Below are positions 2,350 to 20,535 of a stretch of DNA of 20,535 nt, one piece after another. Source of the stretch: Lophium mytilinum (lineage: Eukaryota > Ascomycota > Dothideomycetes > Mytilinidiales > Mytilinidiaceae). Location: NCBI GenBank assembly GCA_010093605.1, contig MU004193.1:1775368-1795902 (forward strand). Reading direction: 5' to 3'. Within the stretch, counting starts at the first letter, position 1, and each line of letters starts with the position of its first letter. Both the position numbers and the translations under genes were made by a program. The notes under the pieces are model-generated. The model did not search any database. It was not told where the DNA came from and saw nothing but the letters and a program-made list of their open reading frames with translations.

Positions 2350-2905
2350 TTTAAAATAGACGCATTACTATCTAATAGTAAGATTAATACTGCAGAAGTT
2401 ATAGACCTAGTCTATAATTTAGAATATAATCTAGAATATAAGATTATAATCTATAAAAGTTGTAATATAGTTCTAAATCCCTTAGCTAATATTAAAGAAC
2501 ATTTAAACCATAAGTATAATATTACTTCTTCTACTACTTCTAATATAGATAATCTATATAAAGACTTAAAAGACTTAGAAATTTCTAATAAAGAGGATAT
2601 TTCTATACCTTCTAATTATAGTATTTACTTTGCTAGCCTACCTATAGTAGAAGAATTTAAGTGTACTATTAAAAAGAATAGTAATTTACCTAAATGCGGC
2701 TTTTTTACTAGTAGTAAGAAAGTACTACATGTACACTTTAATAAAATATATAATCTTAATAATATCTATAAGAATATAGATTTTAATCTAATAGGAGAGT
2801 CTAATATATTAATGTAAACATTCTTTACTAATAATAGAAATATTAGATACTTTATTAGTAGTCTATCTAGACTAGTTGCTATAGATCAGCTATATTATAG
2901 AGGCT
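2350..2905 (+). pseudogene. OrsD/DUF3505-like C2H2-type zinc-finger protein, truncated at its 3' end
   Basis: From 2395 the frame reads LVYNLEYNLEYKIIIYKSCN followed by VLNPLANIKEHLNHKYN. This matches the N-terminal block of the fungal OrsD family (Pfam OrsD, formerly DUF3505), which carries a C-x2-C...H-x3-H finger. The second finger block is also recognisable: EEFKCTI, then LPKCGFF and VLHVHFNKIY. Several zinc ligands read as Tyr (YKSC for CKxC, HKY and NKIY for a final His), which is what CpA/TpG-to-TpA change does to Cys and His codons. Breaks are TAA 2344-2346 just upstream and TAA 2815-2817; reading through the latter, the frame continues (TFFTNNRNIRYF, LVAIDQLYYRG) to TAG 2904-2906, beside the interstitial telomere tract. 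The start is lost or unclear. OrsD proteins are known from secondary-metabolite clusters and are abundant in fungal subtelomeres; the biochemical role is unknown. Confidence 0.8.
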
Positions 2906-2908
2906 AGA

Positions 2909-2922
2909 GGGTTAGGGTTAGG
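2909..2922 (+). repeat. Interstitial telomeric repeat
   Basis: GGGTTAGGGTTAGG is about 2.3 units of the same TTAGGG repeat, in the same orientation, as the chromosome end at 20421. It begins where the OrsD-like reading frame ends and is followed by the degenerate GTAGGGAG. It marks a probable former chromosome end or an insertion junction. Confidence 0.85.
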
Positions 2923-2969
2923 TAGGGAGAAGCAAGTTTAACATAGAGAAAATCAACCTTTAAGAATTG

Positions 2970-3835
2970 CGTGCAGCATAACCTTGCACCGCCGCATTTA
3001 ACCACCACAACGTGAAATAGAGTATGCATGCAAAGAATAATACTTAGAACGCAATGCAATAGCGTTCTATTAACTTTGATTTAATTTACAAGCTGTGGTG
3101 GTGGCTTAAGGTAGGTATAGAGAGGCCGTAGGGTGCGCAGGCATAGAATGGAAATTACTTAAAGGGTTTAGCGTAAGAACAGCCTCGCGCTTAAGAATTA
3201 GTGCAACTACTACTGCATGCAACTACTATAACGTAGTATAGAAGAAATATATAAAGGATTATATATAATATGTAATACAATAGCAATCTATTAACTTAGA
3301 ATTAATATGCAGGCTATAGTAGTAGTAGCAGTTACATATAGAGGTAAGATTCTAAATAATAGAAGTTACTTAAAGAGTTTAGCGTAATGCTAGCCTTACA
3401 CTTAATAAAGACCTTAACCAGCGCTGCATGGAACCACTATAATATAAGGTTAAAGATATTTACAAGGAAAATTACTTATTATATAATGCAACAGCATTCT
3501 AGCAATTTAGAAATATTTTACAGGCTGTAGTTATAGCTCTAGGTGGGTGCAGAGGGTAGAAGGGTAAGGGAAGAGGGCAGCCAGCAGCGTAGAGTATAGC
3601 CCTATAATTAAGCAGCCTTTCTACCGCTGCATATAATAACTTCTAGATATTAAGATACTATAATAGAGCTATAATACTATATATAGTATACGTAATTAAA
3701 TTTAAAGCATTATAGAAAAGGCGAAGTCCTAGTAGTAGGTGCCTATAGAGGGTAATAGATATAATAGAAAGAGTTTTACGTTATAATAGCCTTGCCTTAG
3801 CACAGGTTGCTGCTAGATAGTATTCTTACGTAATA
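2970..3835 (+). repeat. Four diverged tandem units of about 210 bp
   Basis: The anchor CCGCATTTAACCAC (2992) recurs as CTGCATGCAACTAC (3213), CTGCATGGAACCAC (3424) and CTGCATATAATAAC (3627), spacings of about 221, 211 and 203 bases. A second anchor, CAATAGCGTTCTATTAAC (3057), recurs at 3278 and, weaker, at 3489. A third, TTAAAGGGTTTAGCGTAA, is near 3160 with a relative near 3370 and a weak one near 3766. No ORF is present. The units keep more C and G than the DNA to the left. They start just inside the interstitial telomere tract, as subtelomeric satellite repeats do. Confidence 0.75.
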
Positions 3836-3927
3836 GAAATTTTAGCCGCATTAAATAAAATATATAAAGTAAAGGGCAGAATACAGTTTATATAATATTT
3901 ATAGATAAAGCAATTAACAGGGCTACC

Positions 3928-3954
3928 GCAGGAAGCCTTCCTGCTAGGGCCCTT
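3928..3954. repeat. Palindromic repeat, copy 1
   Basis: The core GCAGGAAGCCTTCCTGC is a perfect 17-base palindrome and is followed by TAGGGCCCTT, the right arm of the family found in the helicase introns. The left AAGGGCCCTA arm is missing here. It lies about 190 bases upstream of the ATG at 4142, so it is not in an obvious intron. The 3955-4141 interval holds no other feature I can define. Confidence 0.8.
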
Positions 3955-4141
3955 CCCCAGCGACCTTAACCGAGTGGCCGTATCCGTAAGGGGTGTTAAA
4001 ACGGGTTAGGCGGGGTAAGCCCTATAATAAGAATGTTAATAACTCCTTGTTTTTAACTAATTACACTCCCTAACCGCTTTCTGCTCCTTAGCTCTATATT
4101 CTAAACTATTATCCCCCTTACTACTATACCTAGTAGTTAGC

Positions 4142-7100
4142 ATGGGACGCCCCCAAAAGTACTAGAATAAAGAAGAGCGAAAAGTAGCTAAATTACGTTT
4201 AATAGTGGATTTGAACCGACGCAAGAGAGATAAAAAGAAGAGGGCTGTAGACTAAACAGCTGCAGCAGGAGAGGCTAGTAAGCCTACTCCTACTTCTATT
4301 CTAGATCCGTTTCTAATTATCTTTAAAAACCCTAGAGGTCTTTCTAGTATAAATATTAGGGCCCCTTATCCTACCCGCCCTGCGCCCACGCCCTTTTAAC
4401 AACTAATTGCACCTTAGGAGCCTTTAGAGGAAACTATTGCACAACTTATAATTAGTATATCTTTTATAATCTTCTAGTATTTACGGTTAGGTTCTAATAA
4501 ACTTAAGTAGAACCCGTCTTAATAGAAGAATTATTACCTTCTACCTCTACTTAATCTACGCAATACACTCCTCCGCAGCGGTCTACCTATAGTAGTACCC
4601 GTTCTACTATTCCTTCTATATCTACCTAACCTATGTAACCTACGTAATATACTTCTCTATAGTAGTCTACCTATAGTAGTATCTATTCTACTACTTCTCC
4701 TCTATCTACTAAATCCACCTAATATTCTACTCTAGGGCGGGCTACTTATAGTAGTACTTATTCTCTCGCTCCTCTAACCTTTTAACCTACTTAACTAATA
4801 TAACTTTCTTATACCTAGCAGTCTACTAGCAGTAGTACACGCTCTAGTAAGTTAAGAGCGGCCTAATATATACCTGAAATTTAAAGCAATATAGAATTAA
4901 CGGAAGCTGTAGAGTAAGATTAGAGTAATAGTAGTAAGTATGCTATTATATAGACTATTAAGGGAGCAGCAGTTAAAGAAGAAGAAGAAGCGGCTAAAGA
5001 AAGCAAAGCAAATAAAGAAGTAGCCTAAGTAGATAAAGAAGTAGAAGAGGCAGTATTAGAGTTACTATTACCTGCATCTTCCGCGTTATCTTCTTATATA
5101 CCTGCGTTACCACCGCCTCTAGATGCTAGAGAGGTGTTGCCCTCTCTATTACTACCTTATAGCGTAGGGACACCTTAGTAAGCCGCAAATAATAATAATA
5201 GAGCTCCGGGCTAGGTTCTACCCGCTATATACTATCTCTATAAAGCGTTTCTTAAACCCGCAGCTATACTATATATATATACAGGCGTATATACTATCCT
5301 TGCCCTCTAGAATACTCTATAGACGGCTATAATACTACGCGCAAGTTTACGCGCTTAATAAACTATAGCGGCTTCTACTTCTGTACAACTAGAACTAATA
5401 ATACAATGCTAAATACTAGCCCTTATTACTGTATTACTACTCTACGTACTTGCGCAAATAACTAATAAAGAGATTATAGCGGAATTATTCTTAGCGCAAT
5501 AAAATAAGGCTGTAGAAGTGCTCTCTAGAATAGACGCTGCGGAATAAATAGATAAGGAGGAAATGCTAGCTAATATAAGTCGGTTTATGCAACTAGCGCA
5601 TAACAACGGTTGGGTTTAGATAGAGTGGTACGCTGCCTTATTATCTCTCCGCCTAACGCCAGTAACTGAGGTTGTAGAAGAGGAATTTACCTAATTTAAG
5701 AATAAGGTAGAAGCAGGTATAGATGTAGATAAGGTATTAGATAATAGAGTTAAAGAGGGTAGAGAAGGTATATATACGCAAGGACAGCAAGACACTATAG
5801 ATAAATTACCGGGTTTACTTAATAAAGTTACGCTGGAGAATTAAGGCAGTAGGGTAGATAATACAGCCTTAAATAGTAAAGGCAATAGCAAGATTATAGA
5901 TAAAGTTATAGATAAGATAGACTCTAATAGGTAAGTATTATAAGCTCTACAGTTTATATAAAGCTAATATACGTAGGCATAATAATCTATTAGTAAATAC
6001 TCCACATGCAGTAAGTATAATCTAATTAGTATTAGAAGTCCAGTGTACTTACTATATGTCTTAACTCTTTCTATTTAGATAATATAGTAGCTAATATTAT
6101 AATATAGTAAGTAACTATACAATAATTCCTTAGAGCAAATCTCTTAGCCAAGTTACTAGCTTTCTCCTAGCTTAGAACCTTCCCTTCTAACAAGAGCCTA
6201 TTACAGCTAATGCAGCCTTCTATTTAATAAGCTAACTAGAGCTATTATAGAGAGAGGATAATCCTAACAACTTTAATAATGTTTTATAGAAATTAATATT
6301 AAGCGGAGAAACTAGTAATATAGAAACTCTAAGGCTTAGTTTTATAAGGTCTAAAGCTAGCTTTATAGTAAATAAAGAGATTAAAATCTAGCAAGTATAT
6401 AACATTAATAGCGTTATTATCGGCATCTCTACTTTAGCGGCCTATAATTTATACTTCTTACTATCTCTACAACCGTTCTTTCTCTAAAGTATTACTTAAA
6501 ACTAATATATTATAATACGCGGCTATAAGCTCTATATAATAAAGTAGCTTTATATAGGGCACGGGTGTAAGCATTAATTTAAAACTTATGTGTTTTTCCC
6601 CTAGATGCCGACACTAAATAAGTAGAAGGGCGACACTTTGCATCTACTAGATACAATGCAAGCAGCTTAGCTTAATAATATTATCTTACCTGCAGTAAAG
6701 TATACTCTAATACCCGATAAGTAGCAGTATATACTATATAGTTTTAATATTATACGGGGTAAAGTAAGCGTTAAGAAAGAAAAATATATAATATTATCTA
6801 GAGACTCTTATATTAATACTAAGTATACAATTCTATAGTATTAACTCCGAGAATTCTGGGACCAAGTTCTTTACAACGCAGAAAACTTTGCAGGAACGGA
6901 TACTATACCCGAAGATTTATTTAAAGGAGTATTTCTAGTAGTCTTAGGTTATAATCTAAAAATAGTATATAAGTCCTTAAGTATAATTTAAAGCAGGGAT
7001 TAGCTACTATGTACTTTAACCACTACTTTTAATAAAAACCTAATTAATATACTAGATAAGGGGATATAGGTTAACTATAGATATAAAGATGTCCTAACTA

Positions 7101-9451
7101 CTAATTAGCTAGATACTGGGGTTACCCTTCTACGTAAAACTAGCTGCAATAACCACTAGGCCACTTACTTCTATAATAGCGAAAAAGAAAAGATTTATAT
7201 AACATTATACCCCTACTATCTTACCTAGGGCGCGTTATCTCTAATAGTAGAGCTCTAAGCAGGCAACTATAGCCGTATTAGTAGTATAGCATATAATAAA
7301 ATCTATAATAGTAATAAGATTATGCTTAAGTTACCTGTTAAGGATATTACGCCCTTTTGTAATACTTAACTAGAAGCTCTTGCATTCTTAACTAAAATAA
7401 TTAAGCGGTAGTTTAAAGTAGCAGGTGGCTCTAGAGGATTATTAAAAAGAAAACAGCTTTAGGATAGTCTTGCTGCTATTCTCTAACGCCACTATACTAT
7501 ACTCTGGAGAGACAGACACTTATTCTATAGGGTTTAAACCGAGTTCTAAGTACTTCTTACTATACTTAAGCAACTTAAAGAAAGCGCAAGTCCCGAATTT
7601 ACTATAAAGGATGGGCTGGATAATAGTAGCGAGCCTTATTACCCCTACTGGGTTCTTTCTATAGAAGAAGTTAATGCCTTTACTATTGCAAACCTTAATT
7701 GCTAGGTATTTCTTTTCTAGGTACTGTCTCTTTAGGTTACCCCCGGGCGTAATGCTAGGCATATAGTAACACTAGATAAATAGCTAGTAAATAGTTATTT
7801 AGCATCTCTTTATATCCGCCTTGCGTAAATTACTGCTGGATGTAGTAATCCCACTTAATTATCTATACTGTGGAAAAAAGAGTAGATAAATTAAAAAGAC
7901 CCCCGGAATCCTGTAACCTTATATAGCCTTAGGTTATTAGACTCCCTTAAGAAGTATAGCATAGCTTAGCTAAAGTTAGAGTACTTAGATTAGATAATAA
8001 TGCCCCTATAACTTAGCCCTTAAGGCGTTAATTAACTACAAGCCGGCCTTAGAAATTAATTCCAAGCTACGTTTACTAAAGCTCGGATCTAGGTATCTCT
8101 TACTAGGGAGGATATAGAGATGCAGTATCTATAGTATGGTATTATAGTATAGTACACGCTAGCTATTTAACGCAAAAATAGGACTAAAGTGTAAAAAGAT
8201 TGGCGATTAGCACCGCTATGGATAGGTAAGGCAGCTGCGCTTATTATTAAGGCATACTATACCGATATATACGAGCTTCTAAGTAGACAGTATATAGGAG
8301 AAGACGGAAATACTAAGACGCGACGGGAGAGTAAAGAACTACGCGACTAATTTCTTAAGAGTATTCTAAATAGATCTATAGTTGCGCTTTATCCTAATAT
8401 GCTTATAAAGCTATATAGAAAGTTAGAACTTATAGTAAGCTACGCCTACGTGCGGAATATAGCTAGAAATAGTAATATAAATTATCTAAGGCACTTAACT
8501 AGACGCTAGATTAATTAAGTCTGGCCGCTGTTTAATATTATAGATCTAGCTGCAGAAACTTAAAAATGGAACAACAGTTCCTTCTGCATAAAATTGCGAA
8601 GATTAAATGCAATAATTAGAAACGAAGCGTTACTAAAAACAGTAGAATAATTCCTTAATAATCTATAAGCAAGAGCTGCCTTATTACTCTAGGTTCTTCT
8701 AAGATATAATAATAATAAAATTTTAACCACGCGTTAAGCTAAATAAAACAACTCTAAAGATACATAAGATAATATTAGGGGAAGAGATGCAATTATAAAT
8801 ATATAGTAGATCTATATGCAACTACTAAATAGCTACTACTATAAGGTAGCCTAACTAAGCTAATATATTAAAGAACAGGCTTAAGGGGGGGTAGTTAACC
8901 TTAGCATGGACGTAGTTATAAAGGAAGTATAGAATATAACCTAGGGAAGCCTAGGAAAGTTAAAGATAATAACAATAGAGGATAATATTATAGGCCCTAG
9001 GGGTTAAGTTAATCTAAAACATGTCTAGCTTAGGTTTAAGCACTGTACACTAAATAGCCCAAGGGCTTATTTAGGCAGGATTCTAATAATTAAAGAATTC
9101 TGGAATTATTTAGTAATATAGAAGGAGCAAGAGGGGGATATAAGTAGTTAGTTATTAGATAAAGAGTATAAGTATAAAGAGAGTTTAGGTAACTATAGCT
9201 TAGAAATAGAGGACTTGGAGGACTCGGGGTAAGAGGCCTAGAAAAATAAGGCTTAAGTAGAAGAGTTCTAAGAAGCATATAGATTTAAGCGTTAATAGGT
9301 AGACTGGCAGGGGCGGCGTTATAAAGAAGAATTATTAACGAGGAAGGTAGTAAAGTAATTAGTATAAGATGTAAAGGGCGTTAGTAGGAAGGCTTCTAGC
9401 TAGGCTCTTATATAGTACGCAAATGCTTATCTAGTAGGTGCGTAGCGGTGA
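4142..9451 (+). pseudogene. Very long unknown protein remnant (about 1,600-1,700 codons), RIP-degraded
   Basis: I do not recognise the family. The ATG at 4142 opens MGRPQKY, then a basic stretch (LNRRKRDKKKRA) suggesting nuclear or nucleic-acid contact, then a Ser/Thr/Gln-rich repeat block (about 4535-4860), an acidic Glu/Lys coiled-coil-like segment near 4975-5060, and helical sequence to 5930. Likely introns are 5931-5976 (GTAAGT...ACGTAG) and 6011-6078 (GTAAGT, TTAAC, ATTTAG), with a small phase-compatible exon between them. Beyond about 6130 long readable stretches include LREFWDQVLYNAENFAGTD, MLKLPVKDITPFCNTQLEAL, YYPYWVLSIEEVNAF, KDWRLAPLWIGK and NINYLRHLTRR. The last frame (about 8930-9449) has only TAA/TAG breaks and reaches a TGA at 9449-9451, which CpA-directed RIP would not create, so this is probably the true stop. 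Frame changes near 4490 and 6080-6130 are unresolved introns or indels. It lies directly upstream of, and in line with, the SNF2 pseudogene. Confidence 0.6.
4535..4860 (+). repeat. Degenerate coding tandem repeat, Ser/Thr/Gln-rich
   Basis: With TAA/TAG read as Gln, one frame gives repeated blocks of the form QYTPPQRSTYSSTRST, QYTSLQQSTYSSIYSTT, QYSTLGRATYSSTYS and a weaker fourth, at a spacing of about 80-110 bases. It is a disordered low-complexity linker inside the unknown long protein. The frame is offset from that of the ATG at 4142, so an intron or indel lies between about 4480 and 4530. Confidence 0.6.
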
Positions 9452-9555
9452 TATATATAAGAAGAGAGGTAATAATAGGCGTGCTTAATATAAGTAGTAA
9501 AGGGCCCTAGTAGAAAGGCTTTCTAGTAAGACCCTTATACTGTAGGCAAATAGTT
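9373..9555 (+). repeat. Palindromic repeat copies 2 and 3 in a 126-bp tandem duplication
   Basis: Copy 2 (about 9373-9410; core TAGTAGGAAGGCTTCTAGCT) and copy 3 (9499-9537; AAAGGGCCCTAGTAG then AAAGGCTTTCTAGTAAG) are offset by 126 bases. The flanking sequence is also shared: CAAATGCTTAT (9420) and CAAATAGTTAT (9545). A segment carrying the palindrome was therefore duplicated in tandem. Copy 2 lies inside the last readable frame of the long unknown protein and copy 3 lies beyond its TGA. Several Cs are now T, as RIP would do. Confidence 0.7.
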
Positions 9556-9880
9556 ATATAATAACGCGCGATGTTCTATTAACCTATCTTAGCGCAGTGC
9601 TATATTACTAGAACTAGGTAATACGTAGCGTAGTATTGTAGATTAACCGTAAATATTCGCATATTAGTAAAATTAAGTAAAACGCCGATATATTTATACC
9701 CGCGATATTTTAACCTTATATAATATATAGCCATTACGTTAACCTTAAGAGTTAACTTAAGTAGTTTACTATTAAAGGCTTAGCGTCTTAGCGGCCGGCG
9801 GCTATTAGCCCGGCCGCCTACAAACTTATCCGCCGCCTAGTAGCTTTAACTTTCTTACTTCTATACTAACCTCTCTTTCT
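9556..9880 (+). promoter_or_regulatory. Intergenic region with GC-rich inverted repeat, likely upstream of the helicase gene
   Basis: There is no gene. The main structure is a perfect 8-base inverted repeat, GCGGCCGG (9791-9798) and CCGGCCGC (9810-9817), separated by 11 bases and standing out from TA-rich surroundings. It lies about 65-90 bases before the inferred start of the SNF2 gene. Paired CGG/CCG triplets resemble binding sites of fungal Zn2Cys6 activators, but this is inference. The rest (TATATAATATATAG near 9720) is A+T-rich. Confidence 0.35.
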
Positions 9881-10135
9881 ATACTACTGTACCCCTATTA
9901 CTTCCACTTATCTAGCTACCTGCGGAACGGTTGCGCGCTAGACCCTTACTTGCTAGACGATAGTTAGCAGCTTTCTAGCTACGTTGGAGCCGTAATTGGC
10001 TAGTTTTAGGCGTCCTTTTAGCTAGCGGTTAAGCCTTTTAGTAAGTTTGCTGTCTAGTAGGTAAAATTAAGTTACGTTATAGCTAATTCTGCTAACAGGT
10101 TTATTCTATTGCAATTTCTCTAAGAGTGGAGTAAG

Positions 10136-10200
10136 GTAAGCGTATTATAAGGATTGTTGCAGGAAGGCTTCCTGCTAGGGCCCTTTGCTAGTCTTAGTAG
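10136..10200 (+). repeat. Helicase intron 1 with palindromic repeat copy 4
   Basis: The donor is AAG|GTAAGC and the acceptor is TTAGTAG (10197 or 10200 both keep phase 0). The palindrome copy is at 10159-10186: GCAGGAAGGCTTCCTGC then TAGGGCCCTTT, with an intact right arm and no left arm. The intron is about 65 bases long and removing it joins QFLQEWSK to ISLPQF. Confidence 0.7.
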
Positions 10201-10271
10201 ATTAGTCTGCCTTAATTTTAAAGATGCGGCGGCAGGAAATATTAAGAAAATAATAATACTAAAAATACCCG

Positions 10272-10367
10272 GTATAGTGCAAAGGGTCTTGGCAGGAAGC
10301 CTTTCTACTAGGGCCCTTTGCCTGCCTTCTTTCTTCTATTATTTAAGATAAGCTAACATATTAATAG
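10272..10367 (+). repeat. Helicase intron 2 with palindromic repeat copy 5
   Basis: The donor is GTATAG, the branch site GCTAAC (10352-10357) and the acceptor TTAATAG. The intron is 96 bases, phase 2 on both sides. Copy 5 spans 10279-10321, from GCAAAGGGTCTTGGCAGGAA to CTACTAGGGCCCTTTGC, the longest palindrome in the window with both arms present. Confidence 0.8.
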
Positions 10368-11304
10368 GCTGGCCATAAATACCTTAAGTAATGGGGACCC
10401 TAGTAAAGCAGTAGTAAAGGTTGCATCCCTGCGCATATTACCTGTAACCGACCTAGTAGATAGCTATAAGAAATAATCTACTTCTTCTAAAGTGCTAGAA
10501 GATTTAAATTCTACCTCCCTACTAGTTACTAAATTGGGGGTTGATGCCTATAGCGATTTAAAGCGCAATTAGCCGGCCACTGTAATAGATCTGGAGACGC
10601 TTATATTAGTAAATAGCAAAGTGGTTTATCTAGATAGTAATAACTATAGTAATAACTCTAATGTCCCTAAGAACTCTAATAAAGAGCAGGAGAAGCTTTA
10701 AGCGCTAGTTACTGGCACTAGAAAAGATAAAGAGTTAGAGAAGTTGTGGGCCTTAGTAAACACGCTGTATGCTAGTAGAATAAAGTTGGCTAAGCTTTAT
10801 AGTTAAATAAAAGTAGAACTTAAAGCAATTCTAGCTAAGCCTAATTTCTAAGCAATTTAGAACAAGTATAAGGATAGGTATTTAGACCTAAAGCGCGCCG
10901 TGCATAGTTAGAATTAAGGGGCTAGTTTTGCTACTGTCCTAAACGCTTTTAAGACTGGCGAGTTGTATAATCTGCAGTAATATACTACTTCTTAGCCTAA
11001 GACGGATAACTATAAACCCGTGGATTAGGCAGCTTAATTTATTAGTTAATGCTTTAATTACTACTGGAAGCGGTTTAGTGGGTTTTTGTATAACCGCGCT
11101 AATATTACTAATAACGAAGCGCTTAGAATCTTCTTTAAATTAAAGAAAAATATAGAATTTAAGAGTGGCCCGTCTTAAGCTAGCAGGACTGCCTATACTA
11201 AGAACTAAATTAAGATACAGGACGTTCTTTAAAAAATAAAGCTTAGTCTAGCACCGGCACCTAAGACCCCGGCTAAAACTATTACTTATAGCAGGAAGGA
11301 TGTT

Positions 11305-11332
11305 AATAGGAAGCCTTCCCGTTAAGGCCCTT
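11305..11332 (+). repeat. Palindromic repeat copy 6 inside helicase exon 3
   Basis: ATAGGAAGCCTTCCCG followed by TTAAGGCCCTT matches the core and right arm of the family. It keeps the exon 3 frame. A 48-base in-phase interval (11302-11349, GTTAAT...TATTAG) could be an eroded seventh intron, but the splice signals are poor. Otherwise the copy is part of the coding sequence in a disordered Ser/Pro/Arg-rich linker. Confidence 0.55.
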
Positions 11333-12075
11333 CTAGGCCTCCCTATTAGCAGTCGCCCTCTTGTTTTACTAAGGAGGAACTCGCGGCCATTAATATAGAG
11401 GTTAACGCAGACAACCCTATCTAGGGGTTATCTAAAGAGGAAATTGCTGCAAACCTAGTTAATAAGGAGAAAGGCAACGTTAATGTTACTAGTACTAAGT
11501 ACATCACCGGCACTATAAAATAGAAGCTTAAGTTAGTAATTGCGCATGCTAAGCGCACTGGAGTAATAATTAACCGGAACTCGTTAAAGTTTCAATACAA
11601 CGCATATCGGGTAATTAGATAGATGGCAGGAGATTTTATATATACCGTTAAATAGCACCTAAACATGCGCGCTGCAGATCTTAATAAGGACAAGTATGCT
11701 AATCTAGACGGTATTAAATATGCCTAAGACATAGAGGCTAATATAAGGGCTACCGCTATTAATATAAAGGATATTATCCCCTTTACTATATTAACCGCGG
11801 CAGATCTTATAACGCAGAGTGCACTCCGCCTTCTAATAACTAATAAAGCCTATTAGCTAGATAACCTAAAAGAAGCAATAAAGGCCCTACGCATTTATAA
11901 CTATCAGGAACCCCGCCTTATTATAATAAATGGTAATATTTACTTAAGGTAGTAGCAGATTACCGGAGCTTACTATATATACTGTATTATATAGAAAGGC
12001 TTTCTTAGTGGGGCCTTAATTATAGATAAGGTTAGTATTAGGAAGACATTTTTAATAGCTACCCTTATTAGACAT

Positions 12076-12144
12076 ATAAGTAATTTCTCTTTAAAGAGTA
12101 TTAATAGGAAGCCTTCCTACTATCCCCCTAATAGTTTCTCTTAG
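12076..12144 (+). repeat. Helicase intron 3 with palindromic repeat copy 7 and mutated donor
   Basis: The 69-base, phase-0 intron ends CTCTTAG with a CCTAAT branch-like site. The donor reads ATAAGT instead of GTAAGT, the result expected when TpG is changed to TpA. Copy 7, TAGGAAGCCTTCCTA (12105-12119) then CTATCCCCCTA, is a perfect short palindrome with a decayed right arm. Removal joins ATLIRH, just after helicase motif I, to HLLIQLQLITKRQRKV. Confidence 0.75.
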
Positions 12145-12893
12145 CATCTACTAATTTAATTATAGCTTATTACTAAGCGCCAGCGCAAAGTTGCGGATAA
12201 GAAAGACCCCGGGCCGGCGAAGCCCTTTCTTTTTCTTGTGCCTCCCGTTTTAGTACACTAAATAGTAAATAAACTTACAAAGTTTAGTTCTAAACTTAAG
12301 CTCTATATCTATTTATTAAAGGGCTAAGTTGCTTTCTATAGCGCTACGTTTCTATACAACACCTTAACTAGGGACTATCCCTTATTTAATACTAAAAACA
12401 AGGCCAATGCTAAGAGCATTATAATCGCTAGCTATTGGGTAATAGCTAGTCGGCACGGTCCCCAGCCCGCATTAAAGTGGTATAGCGATAATAATCTTAC
12501 TAAGCTAAAGAATTGGGTTAAATATTGCCTAAGCTCTACCTGGCCCGGTCTCTTAAGTGGCTATTTCAACGTCTAATTTATAGATAAGTGCTAGCTTATT
12601 AAAAGCGACTAAGTAAACCTCCACCTAACCGCCTTATAGCTTTACTTAGACTTTACTGTACTCTATAGTGGGACCCCGCTATATATAGGCATTACTAATA
12701 TACCTGCTTACATGTCTTTTATAGAACTGAGAGATAAGTATCTATAATTCCGCACGTACCGCTTAACACCCGGTAAAGCTAAGTTTGTTCCGGGTACCGA
12801 TAATCTATTTAAGCTTCCCGACAACTATTTAGGTATAATTTTCTGGTATACACGCAAGGCTTTTAAAAATTTTATTCTGCCTTTATTTAACCC

Positions 12894-12987
12894 GTAAGTT
12901 ATTATATAAAGGGCCCTAGCAGGAAGGCTTCCGGCCAGGGCCCTTATCTCTTTTCTTATTTACTTTAATTTTCTAATATTTCTCCAG
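12894..12987 (+). repeat. Helicase intron 4 with palindromic repeat copy 8
   Basis: Donor GTAAGT, branch TCTAAT and acceptor TCTCCAG define a 94-base phase-2 intron between the two helicase lobes. Copy 8 (12907-12946) is nearly complete: TAAAGGGCCCTAGCAGGAAG, then GCTTCCGGCCAGGGCCCTTA. Without splicing, the frame meets TAA at the donor (12895-12897); with splicing it runs on as PITQGLYLRLIFSKYIIARL. Confidence 0.9.
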
Positions 12988-14390
12988 GATTACACAGGGG
13001 CTTTATTTACGCTTAATTTTTAGTAAGTATATAATTGCTCGCTTATACCCTTCTACATGCCCGAATAATTCCACTAATCCTGCCACCCAAATTAGAGGAT
13101 TACTTCTGTAGTTAGTTACGCGAGTAATTAAGCTACAGCCTATAAAACTAGGCTATATTATCTATGCTAATAAATCACCAGCCTACCTTAAGTTATTAAT
13201 GGTTTCTACTAAGAACCGCGTAGGCCAGCGCACCTATGCATTTAACGCATGCTCCGTGCATGCTCTTAACCTTATAAGCACTGCGCCATTTTTAGTCTAC
13301 TTTAAGCGCGCCATAATAGCATATCCGCAAAAGAAGGTCTTAGATTTAGAGGGTAATAAGATTAAGGATGGCCCGAAAATTATCCCTCTTAAGAATAATG
13401 GCGGTTACTGGTTAAAGGAAATTAACGTTTTGCGAGGCATAATAAAGTAAATTGCCCGGAATAAGGACGTCTAAACTAACCCTAATTAGAAAGACTTTAA
13501 AGTAAAGTCCACATTCTTTTATTACGTTGTTGCCCTTTTTATCCGCGATGCCCCTAAAGTGGCTGCACTACTATACTGTTTGGCTGACGACGTTATTAAG
13601 CGTATGGAGAAGGTTATTATCTAGACTAACTACCTAGATAAGTAAATAATTCTTACTAAGATTATTAACTATTATAAAATGGATGCTTATATATTAGCCT
13701 CTAATCTCTCTACTACTGACCGGGATAACCTTATCTTGGTGTTTAACAACCCCAACTCTAAAGTAAAGATTCTTATTACTAGTTACTAGGCTAATAGAGC
13801 TAGGCTTAATCTATAGTCTACTTACTATAATATATATCTTTTTAACCCTGCAGGCTCTATTTAGATTAAGGAGTAGGCGATAGCGCGTTTCTATAGGATT
13901 GGCCAGAAGTTTACTATTATGGTAACCGCGTTCTTTATCTAGAATATATTTAATGCCTTTACTCTCTCGCGCTAGGTATAGATAGCGCTTCCCGGTCTTA
14001 CTGCTACGTTAAACACTAACTAGATTAAGGTAGAGGGGACCTCTAAGGAAAAGCTAACCCTAGATAGCTAGTATGCGTAGGTAACCTATAATAATAAGAG
14101 CATCGCACCCCGCCTTATTATAGGCGAAATAGATATTTTAAATATGCCAGTAGAATTACACGTTAAGCGCTTTAACTCCCTATAAGACATTCTTGTATTT
14201 CTAATAACTCTTACGCAAGGCAATATAACTTTTTAGTCTAGTGGGTTTAGTAATAAGTTCTAAGAAGAACAAGCGTACGAATTTACTGAATCGGAATTAG
14301 AAGAAGAGTAGGAGAAGGGTGCGAGTAGAGCGCCTAAGAAACCGCGTGTTAATAAGCTAGGTTTAAGACTTAAGCGTTATCCTGCAAGCA

Positions 14391-14478
14391 GTAAGTTCGC
14401 CCTTATAGATTCTAGCGGGAAGGCTTCCTGCTAGGGCCCTACTTGCCTCTTTATACTTTGCTAATCCGTGTTTTATAG
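14391..14478 (+). repeat. Helicase intron 5 with palindromic repeat copy 9
   Basis: Donor GTAAGT, branch TGCTAAT and acceptor TTTATAG give an 88-base phase-1 intron. Copy 9 (14413-14440) reads TAGCGGGAAGGCTTCCTGCT then AGGGCCCT. Splicing joins YPASS to the Lys-rich KATLKPKLKTLE segment in phase; reading through does not. Confidence 0.87.
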
Positions 14479-14847
14479 TAAAAGCTACCCTAAAGCCGAA
14501 GCTAAAGACGCTAGAGTAATAAAATAGTAAAGCTTTAAAGTAGAAGCGCAAAGCTAGTGCTGCACTAGCGGCTGCCGTTAAAAAGCGTAAGCCTAACCCT
14601 AAGTCTGCTGTTATGGTTAAAGACTCTAATTCTGCTAAATCTAATATGCCCACCCCTATAAAGAGCACTACTAGAAATACTTATAGCCCTTTTGTCTGTT
14701 AATATAGGCTGGAGCGTAACCCTTTACGTTAAGTACCCGCTATTTTTAGTAATATAAACGGCGACAACCCTTTTAGTAGGCTAAATAGTAATAACTCTAA
14801 AGGCGAAGAGTATAAGAATAATACTTTATTTCTTGCAAAGTATATAG

Positions 14848-14939
14848 GTAAGAATTTATTCTAGGGCCTTTTTAGGAAGCCTTCCTGCTAGGGCCCTTTA
14901 GTATTGCCTATTATATTACTTAAGTGCTAACTATTATAG
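14848..14939 (+). repeat. Helicase intron 6 with palindromic repeat copy 10
   Basis: Donor GTAAGA, branch GTGCTAAC and acceptor TATTATAG give a 92-base phase-1 intron. Copy 10 (14863-14900) reads AGGGCCTTTTTAGGAAGC then CTTCCTGCTAGGGCCCTTTA, with both arms present. Splicing joins LFLAKYIG/V to APTSARQPTLTLPSGP in phase. Confidence 0.87.
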
Positions 14940-15762
14940 TAGCTCCTACTTCCGCCCGTTAACCTACTTTAACTCTACCTTCTGGCCCTCTTAGTACCTT
15001 TAATAGACGCCTTGTTAGGACCCCTTCTATAGACCCCGTCCCGTCGCCTAATACATAGAAGAAGAGGCAGCGCGGAATGTCTACTATCTTCTTATAGGAT
15101 TCTATAGATAATCTAGTTTTTTATTTACTACTAAAAGCTAATATTAATATAAATAATAAGTAGAATAAGGAGAATATTAAAACCCCTAACGTTAATATAG
15201 AGAACGTCCCGTTTAAGACTAATAAGTAAAACGGGGGGTATCTTAATAATTACCTGGATTTTACTACTACGCTATCTAAAGTTGCCTTTAAGCGTAATAG
15301 CAACTACAGTAGTAACTTAGACGACCCGCCGGAATTTATAGAAGGGGCCTTGCAGCCAACCCTAAAGACTATGTCCTCTAGTAATACTAATAAGGGTTAA
15401 AAGCGCTAAGGCGTAAAAAAGAAGCCCACTGTAAAGAAGGATAAAGCAGCTAAGAAAGACCCTATATTTAAATCCCTTATGTATTGTCCGTATAAGTATA
15501 TAATAGAGGAAGAGATTACTAAGTAGCGCCCTTAGCGTAAAAGGAAGGCTGCTAAGAAGAAAGCTGCTGTGTAGAAGTCTATAAACTCTACTAGACTAAA
15601 AATAGACCTATGCAGGCGGAAGAATAATTCTAATGTTGGCTGACTGCCCGTAGTATTAGGTGCAGATACTAACCCTAATAGTAAAGAGGATAGCAGTAAA
15701 TTAGAGGGGACTAGCATAGCACTAGAGAAGTCTAATAGCGAGGTATAACTAGTAGAGTCTTT

Positions 15763-15790
15763 ATAGGAAGGCTTTCTATAGGGGCCCTTA
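15763..15790 (+). repeat. Palindromic repeat copy 11 at the helicase gene 3' end
   Basis: ATAGGAAGGCTTTCTATAGG then GGCCCTTA. It lies either in the 3' untranslated region, if TGA 15641 is the real stop, or in a seventh intron: GTATAA at 15743 could be its donor and TTTAG near 15803-15814 its acceptor. Both the core CAGG and CCTG have become TAGG and TCTA, as RIP would do. Confidence 0.7.
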
Positions 15791-15814
15791 CTCTACTTTT
15801 TAGATTTAGTTTAG

Positions 15815-17570
15815 CATCTCTTAATGTTTTTTTCTTTTTCTTTCTAACGGTTCTAATTAGGACTACTTTCCTTGCTATTAGTTTATACCTACTTACTTAG
15901 TGCTACTAACTTTTTACTATTCTAATTTCTTGCTTGCGTTCTATCCTCTACCCCCTAATAGTTAGCACTACTCTATAGTAGTAGTACACTTTATGCCCTT
16001 AAAATCTCCTAGTTTATATTTAGCCTCTAGATAGCGGCTTACTTAACTATAGAATATAGCGTAATATTTACTACTATAACTGTGCCTTATGTATCTTATG
16101 CGTAATATAATATTTATTTTATTTATCTATGTTGTAGGGGGCGGTCTTATCCGCCGTAGTTTATATAGTCGGGGAGGGTAATTGCATTCTAATGCCGCTC
16201 TATTATATCTATACTATTAGTATATGCTCCCTATCTTTTTTATAGTAAAGAATCTACTATTATATACCCTGTAATTTAACCCTCTTTACTAATATTAGTT
16301 ATACGGCTGGGCTGAGTCCTCTCTATAGACTCTATCTATTAACACGCTGTATGCGACTTTATTCTACCTATAGTTTTCTAAAGCGTGTATTATTGCATAA
16401 TACCTAAACTAACCGGAAGGAGAGTTATTTATACGTGTTGTTGTTAAGTTTTTAGCGTACTAGGCGGCGGAAGGTAATTTAGGTGTCGTAGTTGTACTTT
16501 CTAGTTTATCGGCGATGTATTTGGACCTGCTTATTATTAGCAAGGATAGTAATTCTTAAGGGGTTACAGTCTTACCGTTTATTACTTTTAATATAACTTT
16601 CCTCCTCCTTGCAGTTATAAATAGTCTCTATATTATAAATAGAACTGCTCTTTTATTCTAGTATTTTTCTTTACTTCTATTCTTATAGCCGTCTTAATAA
16701 GCGCTTTAGCCGTGTAAGCTTTCTTCTTACAACTAAATCTAGGGTAGTATTTACAACCTTGCGCCTAGACAGGGTATTAGGCGTAGTAAGGGGAGAAGCT
16801 AACCGCTCTATTAGGATATATGTATTAGGCAGACGTAGATATATCTGCCCCTGCTAAATATTATCCTCGGCGTTTAGAGTTGCTGTGCTGCTGCGCGTTA
16901 ACCTTAGTGTACCGGGCTGTATTTTATATACTTTAGCCTGGTTTAGAGTTGCAGCCGTCTCTACGTTAGGTTAGGCCGCTTCTTATCTCGCAAATATCCG
17001 CCGGAACGCTCTAGAAAGGACGTATATAGTATACTAATTAAGACTTACGTATAGTATTGTGCGTGGGCTGCTACTATACTATAAGGGGTAGGTAGTAGTT
17101 AGAAAAAGGTTTAATGCGCTAGTTTCTATTAATCTTAGCATATTACGTGCTAACTACTTGTATTATACCTACACTTATAATTAACCTTTAGAGGTTAACT
17201 CTATATACTATATATAAATAGCAGCACTAAGAGTTTTATTTTATTACTATACTATACGTATATTTTACCTTAGGCGGGACTAGTAGGTCCCTATAATGTA
17301 TAGTTTATATAACTATACTCTACGTTGCTTTAGCGCCCGCCCAATTTACTTTTCCTCTCTTTTCTTACTCCTTTAGCTTATTCCTCTCTATACTATAGCT
17401 GCAGGCAAACTAATAGCTAGAACTAGCACGGGAGAGACTCTTAATTGTATTTAAAGTACTTTAGAGAGATAGATTAATAGTATATAAAGTTTTAAAGCCG
17501 GCAGGCCGTGGGAATACCTATGCAACTAACTTGGGAGAGCAGCACGCTAAGAACAGCACCGCCACAATAG
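15815..17570. other. Intergenic, no supported gene
   Basis: TA-rich with scattered GC islands (GTAGGGGGCGGTCTTATCCG at 16134; CGGCGGAAGG near 16465). No ORF, RNA gene or copy of the palindrome is seen. On the minus strand, 17040 down to about 16620 has a weakly protein-like frame (KAYTAKALIKTAIRIEVKKN) with only TAA/TAG breaks, but RIP-altered DNA produces such frames by chance, so I do not call it. The last 200 bases may include the upstream region of the ORF at 17579. Confidence 0.4.
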
Positions 17571-17578
17571 GTATACTA

Positions 17579-18207
17579 ATGGGCTCGGGTACTATTACTT
17601 AGAACCCTCTTCTTAACCCTAATACACCTAGTAATACCGCGGATCTTGCTGCATAAAACGCTAGAGAGGAGTCCTTATTATTTATTTCTAAAATAACTCC
17701 TAAGCTAGCTAATATAGACTAACTCTACACGACTAAACCGCTTACTGTAGAGGATACTGCCGACCCTACCTGCATCCGTGCCTAGAGAGAAGCACTTCTT
17801 GCAACTATCTAGAATTAAAACGGAGGTTCCCTCTTTAGTAATAGCCTAGGCACGTCCACTAATACTGCTCTTAATATGCAGCCTACTATAACTAAGTCTT
17901 AAACTCTCTATAACTATGCTAACCCCCTATCTTAAGCTACTAGAGATAGCGCCCCACCTTCTAAGTCTAATATTAATATTAAGCCTAAACTAGCTAACAA
18001 AGTTAATGTAAAGATTAAGCCTAGTATTAAGATTAAGCCCGGCCTTATAAGCAGCCTGGATACTACAAGTTTTTTAAGAATAATTCTAAGGATAAGGAGC
18101 TTCTGCGCTTGCGGATTAATATAGAAGAGAAGGAGGCAAGGGCTATATAAATAAGATTTAAGGCTATAGCTAGAGAGCGGAAGCGGCAGGGCCTAATCCA
18201 CTTCTAA
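17579..18207 (+). pseudogene. Unknown Asn/Ser/Thr- and Lys-rich protein remnant
   Basis: I do not recognise it. ATG 17579 opens MGSGTITQNPLLNPNTPSNT and continues with TAA/TAG breaks only at probable Gln codons, through EESLLFISKITPKLANID and VEDTADPTCIRAQREALLAT, to a striking basic stretch with alternating Lys/Ile/Pro (VNVKIKPSIKIKPG). Near 18060 the readable frame shifts by one base or an intron intervenes; it resumes as YKFFKNNSKDKELLRLRI and a helical basic end (AIARERKRQGLIHF) to TAA 18205-18207. The order, a disordered N-terminus then charged helices, suggests a nucleic-acid-associated or scaffold protein, but that is inference. It immediately precedes the half-dsRBD duplicate and may be the first part of one larger gene with the MYND segment. 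Confidence 0.5.
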
Positions 18208-18236
18208 ATCTAAACCTTAGACGGGAGTAGTAGCGC

Positions 18237-18390
18237 CCTAATCTATTCCTATCTCTACGCGCTTATTAGTAAATACCCAACTCTTTATCCAGCGCTGCCA
18301 GGCTCTTACTATCCCCCAACCTATCTTCTCCTTTAATAGCAACGCGTCCCTGCCCTTCTAGAACTGCACCCTAGCCCTCTACGCCGTCTA
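18237..18390 (+). repeat. Duplicate of the first half of dsRBD 1 (partial coding repeat A)
   Basis: About 140 bases from CTCTACGCGCTTATTAGTAA are close to 19346-19483, starting at ATACGCTTATTAGTAAACAC, with an offset of about 1,093 bases. In frame it encodes RLLVNTQLFIQRCQALTIPQ then PIFSFNSNA and NCTLALYA, the helix 1 and first strands of a dsRBD. After CTCTACGCCG the two copies diverge: the telomere-side copy continues to strand 3 and helix 2, while this one passes into unrelated sequence before the MYND segment. It is either a truncated duplication or an exon end whose partner is lost. Confidence 0.75.
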
Positions 18391-19080
18391 CGTGGAAATT
18401 ATCTAATAGGCTTTACTCTTTTACTTTACCTTACTCTTATTTCCTTCTTTAATAGCTTTATCTCTACTCTTCTACTATTAGTCTTATCTTCTTCCACTAT
18501 AGCGGAGCCTCTAGATCTAACCCCTAGTAATAGTACTAGTTTACCCTTTACTACTATAGCGAAACCCGAAGATTTATCTTCTATTACTACTACTACCGCG
18601 TTGCTAACTCGCGAGCCCTAAAATTGCGGATATTGCAGAAAGGAAGCTACTCTAAGGTGCAGTTGCTACGCCAGCGTTATCTACTGCAATGCGGATTATT
18701 AAAAGGCCAACTGGAAATTATCTAATGCGCCGCCTTCTTGCATAAAGGTTGTTGCACTATAATAAGACTCCTATGCTTTAGCTTAAATTTACTAATAGAC
18801 AGCGAAGAGCGTAAAGTTTAGCGGATTATCTAAGGGGTAGAAATTAAAACGGGCTCTAGCTCTATTATGCGACTATAAGCTGTAATATACTTTACCTCTT
18901 ATAAACTTAGCCCGCTACGCATAAATATAGAGTCTCTCCTGCCTAAGCGCTAAAGAATAACTTCTAGTAGAGCAGCTGCAGCTACCCTAGCTTGTGCAGA
19001 TTAAACTAGCACCCCACCTTAGCCTTCTTAGGCTAGCCTTTAACCTTATATATACACTAGCGTAGGCAGTAATAATTATT
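18340..19080 (+). pseudogene. MYND-type zinc-finger protein segment
   Basis: From 18340 to 18618 one frame has no stop and encodes a hydrophobic Leu/Ser-rich stretch, then LDLTPSNSTSLPFTT. After a TAA at 18619 comes a MYND finger at 18625-18741: NCGYCRKEATLRCSC, then VIYC and YQKANWK, with a final Cys (PPSC). This matches the C-x2-C...C-x-C...YC-x3-xQ-x3-W pattern; the usual His before the last Cys is not seen, so one zinc ligand may be lost. MYND fingers are protein-interaction modules common in fungal regulators. Downstream the frame continues as SVKFSGLSKGQKLKRALALL to about 19080 with TAA/TAG breaks. The dsRBD gene follows in another frame with no clear gap, so MYND and dsRBDs may have been one multi-exon gene. 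Confidence 0.75.
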
Positions 19081-19094
19081 CTTATCCTTTCTTT

Positions 19095-20301
19095 ATACTA
19101 AGCTTAATTACTACGCCGCTTCCTAGCTTTAAGAAGAAAAGAAAGATAGAGGTTGCAACTCCTCTTAGTAGTTAAAACTCTACCTACGCCCCGCCGTTAA
19201 TTAATTAGATACGTAGAGGCTCTATTCTAGGTGCCCTAAGTGTGCTATAAAACCTTTTTAGTATTAATAAGTTTAAGAAGCAGTATAAAGCCGCCGTTGC
19301 CGCTGCTAGAGCCTAAGCCTAATCTACTCTCTAACCTATCTCTATCTCTATACGCTTATTAGTAAACACCCAGCTCTTTATCTAGCGCTGCCAGGCCCTT
19401 GCCATCCCCTAACCTATCTTCTTATTTAACGGCGACGCCTTTCTACTCTTCTAGAACTGCACTCTAACCCTCTACGCCGCCGGCTCCCCCCACTTTCTTA
19501 CTACTACTAGCCTCTTTACCTCTAAGAAAGAAGCTAAAGAAGCCGCCTCTACCTTTAGCCTTGCCCTTCTCTCCTCTCTTAAAGCCTCGGGCATAGTCTC
19601 TACCCCTAGCAAAACTAAAAAATATACTCTAACTCTAACTCCTACTACTACTACCCCTGAGGAACCCTAGGAAAACTTTACTAGTATTTTTATAGAATTC
19701 TGCTAAGCCTCTAAAATCCCCGTTCTAACCTTTACTAAGTTTAAAACCGGCACCTGCTTCTCCGCCGAGCTATTACTGGCCTCGCACCGCCTGGAGAACG
19801 CCCCCTTTAGCGGCTGCGCTATGCTCTACCCGTTAAAGAAAGCGGCTTATGCGGCTATAGTAAGGGAGGCGGTGCTCTAGCTGCGCGTAGAAATAGCTGC
19901 CCGCTATATATAAGCCCGCGTCCGTAAAGAAGTAGTAGAAGACGGTAGGGGGTTCTAAGAACGCCGCGGTGCAGCTACCGGGTAGTGTAGCAGCGCGGGT
20001 GCTGGCGCTGGCGAGCGAGCTAGGGCTACCGCAGCCGGAGTATTAGTAGGCGGCGCTAAGTGCGCTAGCGCCGGGGCTATCTATAGTAAGTAGTTTGTTC
20101 CCGGGGAGTAGAGTAGGCGGGGAGGATAGGGTAGTAGTAATAGTAAGGCATGTAGTTAGAAAGAAGGCGGCGAGGGAGAAGTATGCGCGGTTAATAGGAA
20201 TGGAGTTAGAAGGAGTATTAGAGAGGAGGAAGGGGGTGTTAGAAAAGGTGTTAGAGAAGGGAAAGAGGGAGGTAGAGATAAGAGAGGAGGATAAGAACTA
20301 G
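19095..20301 (+). pseudogene. Telomere-adjacent protein with three dsRNA-binding-like domains
   Basis: Frame 1 (about 19095-19925) begins with a basic segment (LPSFKKKRKIEVATP) and KKQYKAAVAAARAQAQ. dsRBD 1 (about 19347-19590) has helix 1 LFIQRCQALAIPQPIF and the canonical helix 2 start SKKEAKEAAS. dsRBD 2 (19677-19886) runs FTSIFIEFCQASKIPVLTF, then CFSAELLLA, to YPLKKAAYAAIVREAVLQLR. After a one-base frame shift or small intron near 19925, dsRBD 3 (about 19984-20222) has VLALASELGLPQPEYQ and VRKKAAREKYARLIGMEL. A charged coiled-coil-like tail follows (KGVLEKVLEKGKREVEIREE) to TAG 20299-20301. The alpha-beta-beta-beta-alpha order and KKxA helix 2 fit the dsRBD family, whose members bind dsRNA in Dicer, RNase III, ADAR and Staufen-type proteins; no catalytic domain is visible. 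About eight TAA/TAG codons, all at plausible Gln positions, interrupt frame 1, while the last 290 bases have one uninterrupted frame. The end lies 120 bases from the telomere. Confidence 0.7.
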
Positions 20302-20401
20302 TATTCTTATTAGAAGTATAGAGAGACATATAATAGGAACTTATTTATACTTACTTAATTTAGGTTATAGTAGGGGAAGCATATTAGAAGTATAGTAAGT
20401 A
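20302..20401 (+). other. Short A+T-rich spacer between the last gene and the telomere
   Basis: It contains a direct repeat, ATTAGAAGTATAG at 20309-20321 and 20383-20395, and the related GGAAGTATA at 20402. No gene is present. It could include the 3' untranslated region of the dsRBD gene. Confidence 0.5.
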
Positions 20402-20419
20402 GGAAGTATAATTACTTCC
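20402..20419. repeat. Perfect small hairpin at the telomere junction
   Basis: GGAAGTA, a TAAT loop, then TACTTCC: 7-base arms, ending one base before the first TTAGGG unit. It may be chance in a repetitive GAAGTATA context, or the end structure of the subtelomeric block. Confidence 0.6.
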
Positions 20420-20535
20420 GTTAGGGTTAGGGTTAGGGTTTTAGGGTTAGGGTTAGGGTTAGGGTTAGGGTTAGGGTTAGGGTTAGGGTTAGGGTTAGGG
20501 TTAGGGTTAGGGTTAGGGTTAGGGTTAGGGTTAGG
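20420..20535 (+). repeat. Terminal telomere, TTAGGG repeats
   Basis: G followed by three TTAGGG units, one variant unit TTTTAGGG (20439-20446), then about 15 units to the end of the window, the last one incomplete. The G-rich strand runs 5' to 3' toward the right end, so this is the real right end of a chromosome. TTAGGG is the usual repeat of filamentous ascomycetes. Confidence 0.97.

Follow-up and report, generated by a model that had tools for sequence, protein, structure and literature searches.

How does one gene come to carry the same short palindrome in intron after intron? The question is raised by a stretch of 20,535 nucleotides from the fungus Lophium mytilinum (contig MU004193.1, positions 1,775,368 to 1,795,902 of the forward strand), hereafter the window, which forms the right end of one of the 24 contigs of a genome of 43,183,309 bases and terminates in TTAGGG repeats. 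Most of the window belongs to a subtelomeric element copied at other chromosome ends (window positions 2891 to 20420, + strand, from the alignment of fetched copies). Domain matches obtained by reading through stops, together with codon statistics, indicate that this element contains what is most likely an SNF2-type helicase pseudogene (about 9850 to about 15860, + strand), along which a 37-bp palindrome recurs. The original prediction saw candidate introner-like elements in this repeat, which would either create introns when it inserts or insert preferentially, or survive, inside existing ones. Our analysis leads to a model in which the hairpin repeat probably multiplied within a single element and persisted chiefly in introns, between the donor and the branch point.

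The palindrome family is real. It consists of a half-site, AAGGGCCCTAGCAGGAAG, one central base and the reverse complement of the half-site, with the centre AGGAAG-S-CTTCCT. A repeat search of the window returned 11 copies of 41 nt; with three mismatches allowed, the core pattern gave 10 matches (mean of the shuffles 0.04) and the half-site 11 matches, lying within nine of the palindrome copies (mean of the shuffles 0.01). The copies are less uniform than the near-identity first attributed to them, the arms showing 0 to 7 mismatches in 18. The right arm is the better kept in eight of the nine copies other than those starting at 9374 and 9500, the exception being 12909, and the left arm is the better kept at 9374 and 9500; minus-strand introns at these two copies were considered and rejected, no donor being present on that strand. 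Rfam contains no matching family at the gathering threshold, and no exact match to the palindrome was found in viral contigs and prokaryote genomes, collections which are not expected to contain fungi.

The reading frame of the gene was followed by stop density and by codon statistics over nine copies, trained on four clear exons, each of which, when withheld from the training, got its highest score in its own frame. It runs as f0 from about 10,370 to 12,890, as f1 from 12,990 to 14,390, as f2 from 14,480 to 14,846 and again as f1 from 14,942 to 15,740. Three GT-YAG introns, each with a branch-point-like CTAAY, account exactly for these three frame changes and are regarded as firm. They lie on the + strand, as do all the introns below: 12894 to 12987 (94 nt, GTAAGT..TTCTAAT..CCAG, palindrome 12909-12945, f0 to f1), which has no shared stops within 120 nt on either side; 14391 to 14478 (88 nt, GTAAGT..GCTAAT..TATAG, palindrome 14405-14441, f1 to f2); and 14848 to 14939 (92 nt, GTAAGA..GTGCTAAC..TATAG, palindrome 14862-14898, f2 to f1).

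Three further introns are plausible. The intron at 10272 to 10367 (96 nt, GTATAG..GCTAAC..ATAG, palindrome 10282-10318) has good signals and a length that is a multiple of three, and f0 is read downstream and, weakly, upstream of it. The uncertain one of the three, at 10136 to 10200 (65 nt, GTAAGC.., palindrome 10149-10185; ends at 10191 or 10197 fit equally), supplies a needed change from f1 to f0 and has no clear branch point; the exon that follows contains two stops common to all copies, both in TTAA, as repeat-induced point mutation (RIP) of TCAA would yield. A candidate last intron of 118 nt, at 15743 to 15860 (palindrome 15753-15789), where the f1 coding score stops, lies beyond the end of the original prediction. 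The seventh candidate, 12080 to 12165 (86 nt, palindrome 12094-12130), has a donor, a branch point and an acceptor and fails the frame test: the codon score dips at 12061-12195, yet f0 is read on both sides and 86 nt would shift the frame, and no frame-keeping GT-YAG pair was present around this copy among the pairs listed. The six introns implied at the outset do therefore contain one palindrome each (starts 10149, 10282, 12094, 12909, 14405 and 14862), and one palindrome is found in all seven candidates, always starting 10-15 nt after the donor. The agreement of all phases that had been announced is exact for three introns and consistent for 10136-10200 and 10272-10367, but it is broken by the 12094 copy and, as no frame is open, reading through the stops is a precondition for it. 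The 5,259 coding bases of the original model were not reproduced.

The enrichment of the palindrome in introns is real. The three firm introns contain three of the 11 copies where 0.14 would be expected, a count of three being reached by 80 of 20000 circular shifts, and seven of 11 lie in the candidates as a whole against 0.3 expected (42 of 20000 circular shifts). As the candidates other than the three at frame changes were sought around palindromes, the latter figure is not independent, and only the former is nearly so. Preferential insertion or survival in existing introns is mostly supported. A donor-like motif stands 5-16 nt upstream of 8/11 copies, whereas 11.4% of positions in the background have one (binomial p 3e-6); the combination of donor, branch point and acceptor surrounds 6/11, the background rate being 4.6% (p 4e-6). 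On the minus strand one copy of 11 has both.

Most of the introns are also of ordinary length once the palindrome is subtracted. Minus 37 nt, their lengths become 28 (the uncertain first), 59, 49, 57, 51, 55 and 81 (the last), and the distances from donor to branch point become 48, 38, 46, 37, 46 and 68, against 37, 41, 41 and 73 in a comparison sample of four ordinary introns. One of the latter, which contains no palindrome (5931 to 5976, + strand, 46 nt, GTAAGT..GCTAAT..TAG, f0 to f1, in three copies), belongs to ORF A (4160-9360), another long reading frame that neighbours the SNF2 gene and is likewise damaged by RIP; about 1.8 intron candidates of this kind per 160 nt are expected by chance, and the frame change at this place was also seen in a second analysis. 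The others come from actin-family genes and measure 52, 56 (or 66), and 85 or 97 nt; candidates of 89 and 98 nt in actin coding sequence were left out, as were two loci giving none.

The link to introns is not exclusive, four of the 11 copies (all + strand) lying outside the candidates. The copy at 11296 to 11332 is apparently exonic and keeps frame f0: the 30 nt searched ahead of it contain no GT, and the f0 codon score does not dip. Upstream of ORF A, the copy at 3918 to 3954 shows no intron signals. Between ORF A and the SNF2 gene, the copy at 9374 to 9410 has a donor-like GTATAA 12 nt upstream with no matching branch point and acceptor, and the copy at 9500 to 9536 has a downstream branch point and acceptor with no matching donor; an intron may exist at either of these two.

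The protein that had been called recognisable emerges only when the stops are read through, there being no open gene: a single ORF of at least 100 amino acids exists in the whole window (table 11), on the minus strand. With TAA and TAG read as glutamine (Q), the stretch 10543-12897 reaches 27.6 bits against PF00176, above the cut-off of 24.9, and with stops as X it reaches 17.9 bits, below it. The stretch 12989-14389 remains below the Helicase_C cut-off of 23.5 both times (16 bits with stops as X, 19.6 bits with TAA/TAG as Q), and with stops as X it matches the Rad54-like chain 1z3i (E 5.9e-6). Searches among solved structures gave no match for 10543-12897 and 11851-12897 with stops as X, nor for both helicase exons with stops as Q. 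Nine copies of the second helicase exon were found in the genome, of which one is truncated at a contig end; they carry 13-29 stops apiece. No intact paralogue was found, 9/9 close helicase matches in the genome carrying stops, and two distant SNF2-like matches (contigs C14 and C9) are without stops.

The damage bears a clear signature. CpA and TpG are both depleted in the window (observed/expected 0.37 and 0.40) and TpA is raised (1.59). In 7536 alignment columns with at least six copies (window 8.8-16.4 kb), 1557 of the 1596 variable columns are two-state C/T or A/G, and 848 of these 1557 fall in NCA contexts, the four summed, which is the CpA preference of a RIP-mutated repeat. Such a C/T spectrum, together with the depletion of CpA and TpG, is the mark of RIP. 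All nine element copies found are damaged by this type of mutation, which puts C-to-T changes into repeats (PMC7882544). A recoded genome, with TAA and TAG read as Q, was rejected: the stops appear and vanish between copies through C/T changes, so that RIP suffices and no recoding is needed, and long frames are open under genetic code table 6 because TGA (15 occurrences in the window) and TCA (7) are nearly absent.

The palindrome is confined to the element. The genome-wide counts that follow are lower bounds, and more diverged copies would escape. With two mismatches allowed, the half-site has at least 58 matches, of which the window contains 8, the other contig ends that bear the element 45 and the rest of the genome 5 (at least 5, against 2 for a control). 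The exact core has at least 15 sites, 3 of them outside the element-bearing ends (control 1). None of the 8 stray sites is palindromic, one or both arms having 7 to 15 mismatches in 18, and with at least 7 mismatches in an arm at each of the 8 none belongs to the family. The search across the source genome that had been suggested thus found no family copy outside element-bearing contig ends, and none in other genes (half-site with up to two mismatches, or exact core). Among the 45 matches on other ends, 42 map to a palindrome of the window and the remaining 3 lie in stretches not fetched. Each palindrome site of the window is conserved in position in 6 to 9 of the element copies examined, copies with a gap in a palindrome being left out of this comparison.

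The model we propose combines these observations. A 37-bp palindrome would have multiplied within a single subtelomeric element carrying an SNF2-type helicase gene that would then still have been active. Its copies would have been kept in ordinary spliceosomal introns of 50-60 nt, 10-15 nt past the donor and before the branch point, because the hairpin would fold out in the RNA and leave the distance from donor to branch point near normal. The copies in coding sequence would mostly have been lost under selection, save the one in frame at 11296. The element would then have reached other chromosome ends, its palindromes already in place, and RIP would afterwards have damaged all the copies found. 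We are led to this reading by the three of 11 copies in firm introns, the splice signals, the ordinary residual lengths, the palindrome-free intron of ORF A, the in-frame copy at 11296 and the mapping of 42 of the 45 matches.

Several observations weigh against it. The spacing of 10-15 nt is tighter than free insertion would produce, and no palindrome-free intron was found in the SNF2 gene, all seven candidates holding one copy. The donor motif set was chosen after the sequences had been seen; for the 10149 copy the donor scored was GTATTA at 7 nt and not GTAAGC at 13; and the ordinary introns number only four. At least the inner stem is predicted to fold in every one of the seven intron RNAs, but the hairpins are not reliably better than those of shuffles: the z values are 0.47, -2.05, -0.19, -2.81, -1.07, -1.27 and 0.23, below -2 in 2/7. 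Pair covariation among the 11 window copies equals that of shuffles, so that any retained RNA function is at most putative. In one intron pair, furthermore, the flanks are related, with z 3.6 once branch point and acceptor are set aside, as an introner predicts.

Could the palindrome be the core of a unit that created introns by copying itself within this element, the flanks having later diverged? The presence of one copy in 7/7 candidate introns and the uniform spacing from the donor would follow naturally, and fungal introner-like elements have been described as structured or symmetrical (PMC8469720). Seven sister introns would then derive from a hairpin copied with its donor at a spacing of 10-15 nt, a scenario that we hold to be unlikely, and RIP would have frozen the set at several chromosome ends. 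Intron 14848 does have flanks similar to those of intron 14391 (z 3.4 with the branch point included, 3.6 without) and of intron 10272 (3.6 and 2.0), which gives a hint only of shared introner flanks; against two ordinary introns, taken as control, z goes up to 2.64. The splice-site flanks are otherwise mostly unrelated, with a mean z of 0.74 over 21 pairs, of which two exceed 3, and 1/15 pairs above 3 when branch point and acceptor are removed. Against such a unit stand these unrelated flanks, the apparently exonic copy at 11296, the copies at 3918, 9374 and 9500 without complete intron signals, the ordinary residual lengths, the ORF A intron without palindrome and the failure to find any copy outside the element. 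This origin stays in consideration, at a low probability, on account of the tight spacing and because the SNF2 gene yielded no intron free of the palindrome. A DNA transposon or MITE would be expected to leave a target-site duplication; none that is consistent can be seen by eye in the intron flanks.

The hairpin might, on the other hand, be retained as an aid to splicing, a zipper stem spread among the introns by gene conversion. It does sit between the donor and the branch point, where stems in yeast bring the two together, shorten the branch-point distance and are linked to efficient splicing (PMC2536676). A covariation not above shuffles, the five of seven introns folding no better than z -2, the copies outside introns and the nearby ordinary introns that manage without a palindrome make this role doubtful at best. 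It is more improbable still that the palindromes inserted into an already dead gene, the surrounding intron-like signals having arisen by chance because RIP made the DNA AT-rich. No living copy was found, full signal sets occur at 4.6% of background positions and the intron at 12080 fails the frame, but 6/11 against that background (p 4e-6), and GT-YAG introns that resolve three frame changes to the base, weigh against this. Our preferred reading remains the survival, mainly in existing introns, of a hairpin repeat that spread within one element. If the palindrome had made the introns, intron gain would be limited to one gene of one subtelomeric element, which would offer a closed set of sites from which to deduce its mechanism. 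The likelier reading makes the locus a record of where a short hairpin is tolerated in a fungal intron, just past the donor and upstream of the branch point; it would owe its preservation to RIP having killed the element once it had spread. It also illustrates that a RIP-mutated pseudogene, once read through, can mimic a clean gene model.

Several known systems resemble this one in part. The introner-like elements of Dothideomycete fungi are near-identical introns that recur hundreds of times in genes unrelated to one another (PMC4457414). They share with our case related sequences in several spliceosomal introns, three of them firm here, and a predicted structure, whereas here what recurs is the internal palindrome alone, within a single gene of a single element, and some copies fall outside introns. 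Whole introns, flanks included, are not near-identical (mean flank z 0.74, as above) and no copies in unrelated genes were found with the exact core or with up to two mismatches per half-site; as neither of these two clear-cut features was found, we judge the introner reading unsupported. The symmetrical stwintrons and sister introns of the Hypoxylaceae are alike in their inverted symmetry, their sense-strand orientation and the apparent absence of clear flanking duplications. In those introns the inverted repeats are terminal, measure 45-55 nt and have a central WTTCTAGAAA, and short duplications at the flanks are lacking (PMC8469720), whereas the palindrome here is 37 nt long, internal and centred on AGGAAG-S-CTTCCT. 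Introners in general often have target-site duplications or terminal inverted repeats, features which fungal introners do not show (PMC9860276). The small palindromic or hairpin repeats of fungal mitochondria are likewise short palindromes scattered across introns and intergenic DNA (PMC7218506); they are mitochondrial, whereas the palindrome here is nuclear and confined to one element. In the literature searched, outside which most subscription papers lie, there is no mention of this palindrome or of a similar subtelomeric SNF2 element. Telomere-linked helicases (TLHs) of fungi, usually of the RecQ type, are also helicase genes present at chromosome ends in several copies, the gene here being of the SNF2 type. 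The Y' of yeast is a subtelomeric helicase element. In Fusarium, TLHs at chromosome ends accompany telomeric retrotransposons, some of which are RIP-mutated (PMC12857005).

The remaining observations concern the element as a whole. The copies fetched are 88.7-93.8% identical to the window over at most 8.4 kb in one piece, and the copy on contig C21 extends over 13.5 kb. Few indels separate the copies: three have an 18-bp insertion at 15151, the one on C8 has lost 2 bp at 11958 and five show an indel of 8-9 bp at 3559-3620. ORF A has no Pfam match over the cut-off, with stops as X or as Q, and 15/15 of its matches in the genome contain stops. The inner end of the element is fixed, 6/6 compared copies starting near window position 2891 with a short TTAGGG-like tract (window 2891-2950), GAGGGTTAGGGTTAGG or a mutated form of it, and their upstream neighbours differ. 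On contigs C17 and C8 the element is preceded by an older copy of itself, broken off at window positions 6340 and 15126, as if new copies had been stacked onto eroded chromosome ends. The telomere repeats of the window (20418-20535) start within the element, about 520 bp before the copies on C21 and C5 reach their telomere; the window end is a truncated and healed chromosome end. In these extra 520 bp or so, C21 has an exact palindrome core (at 613848) and C5 a mutated version, and a weaker second hairpin can be seen by eye in both. The telomere-proximal part of the window also contains a direct repeat of 149 nt, 84% identical, at 18238-18386 and 19331-19479.

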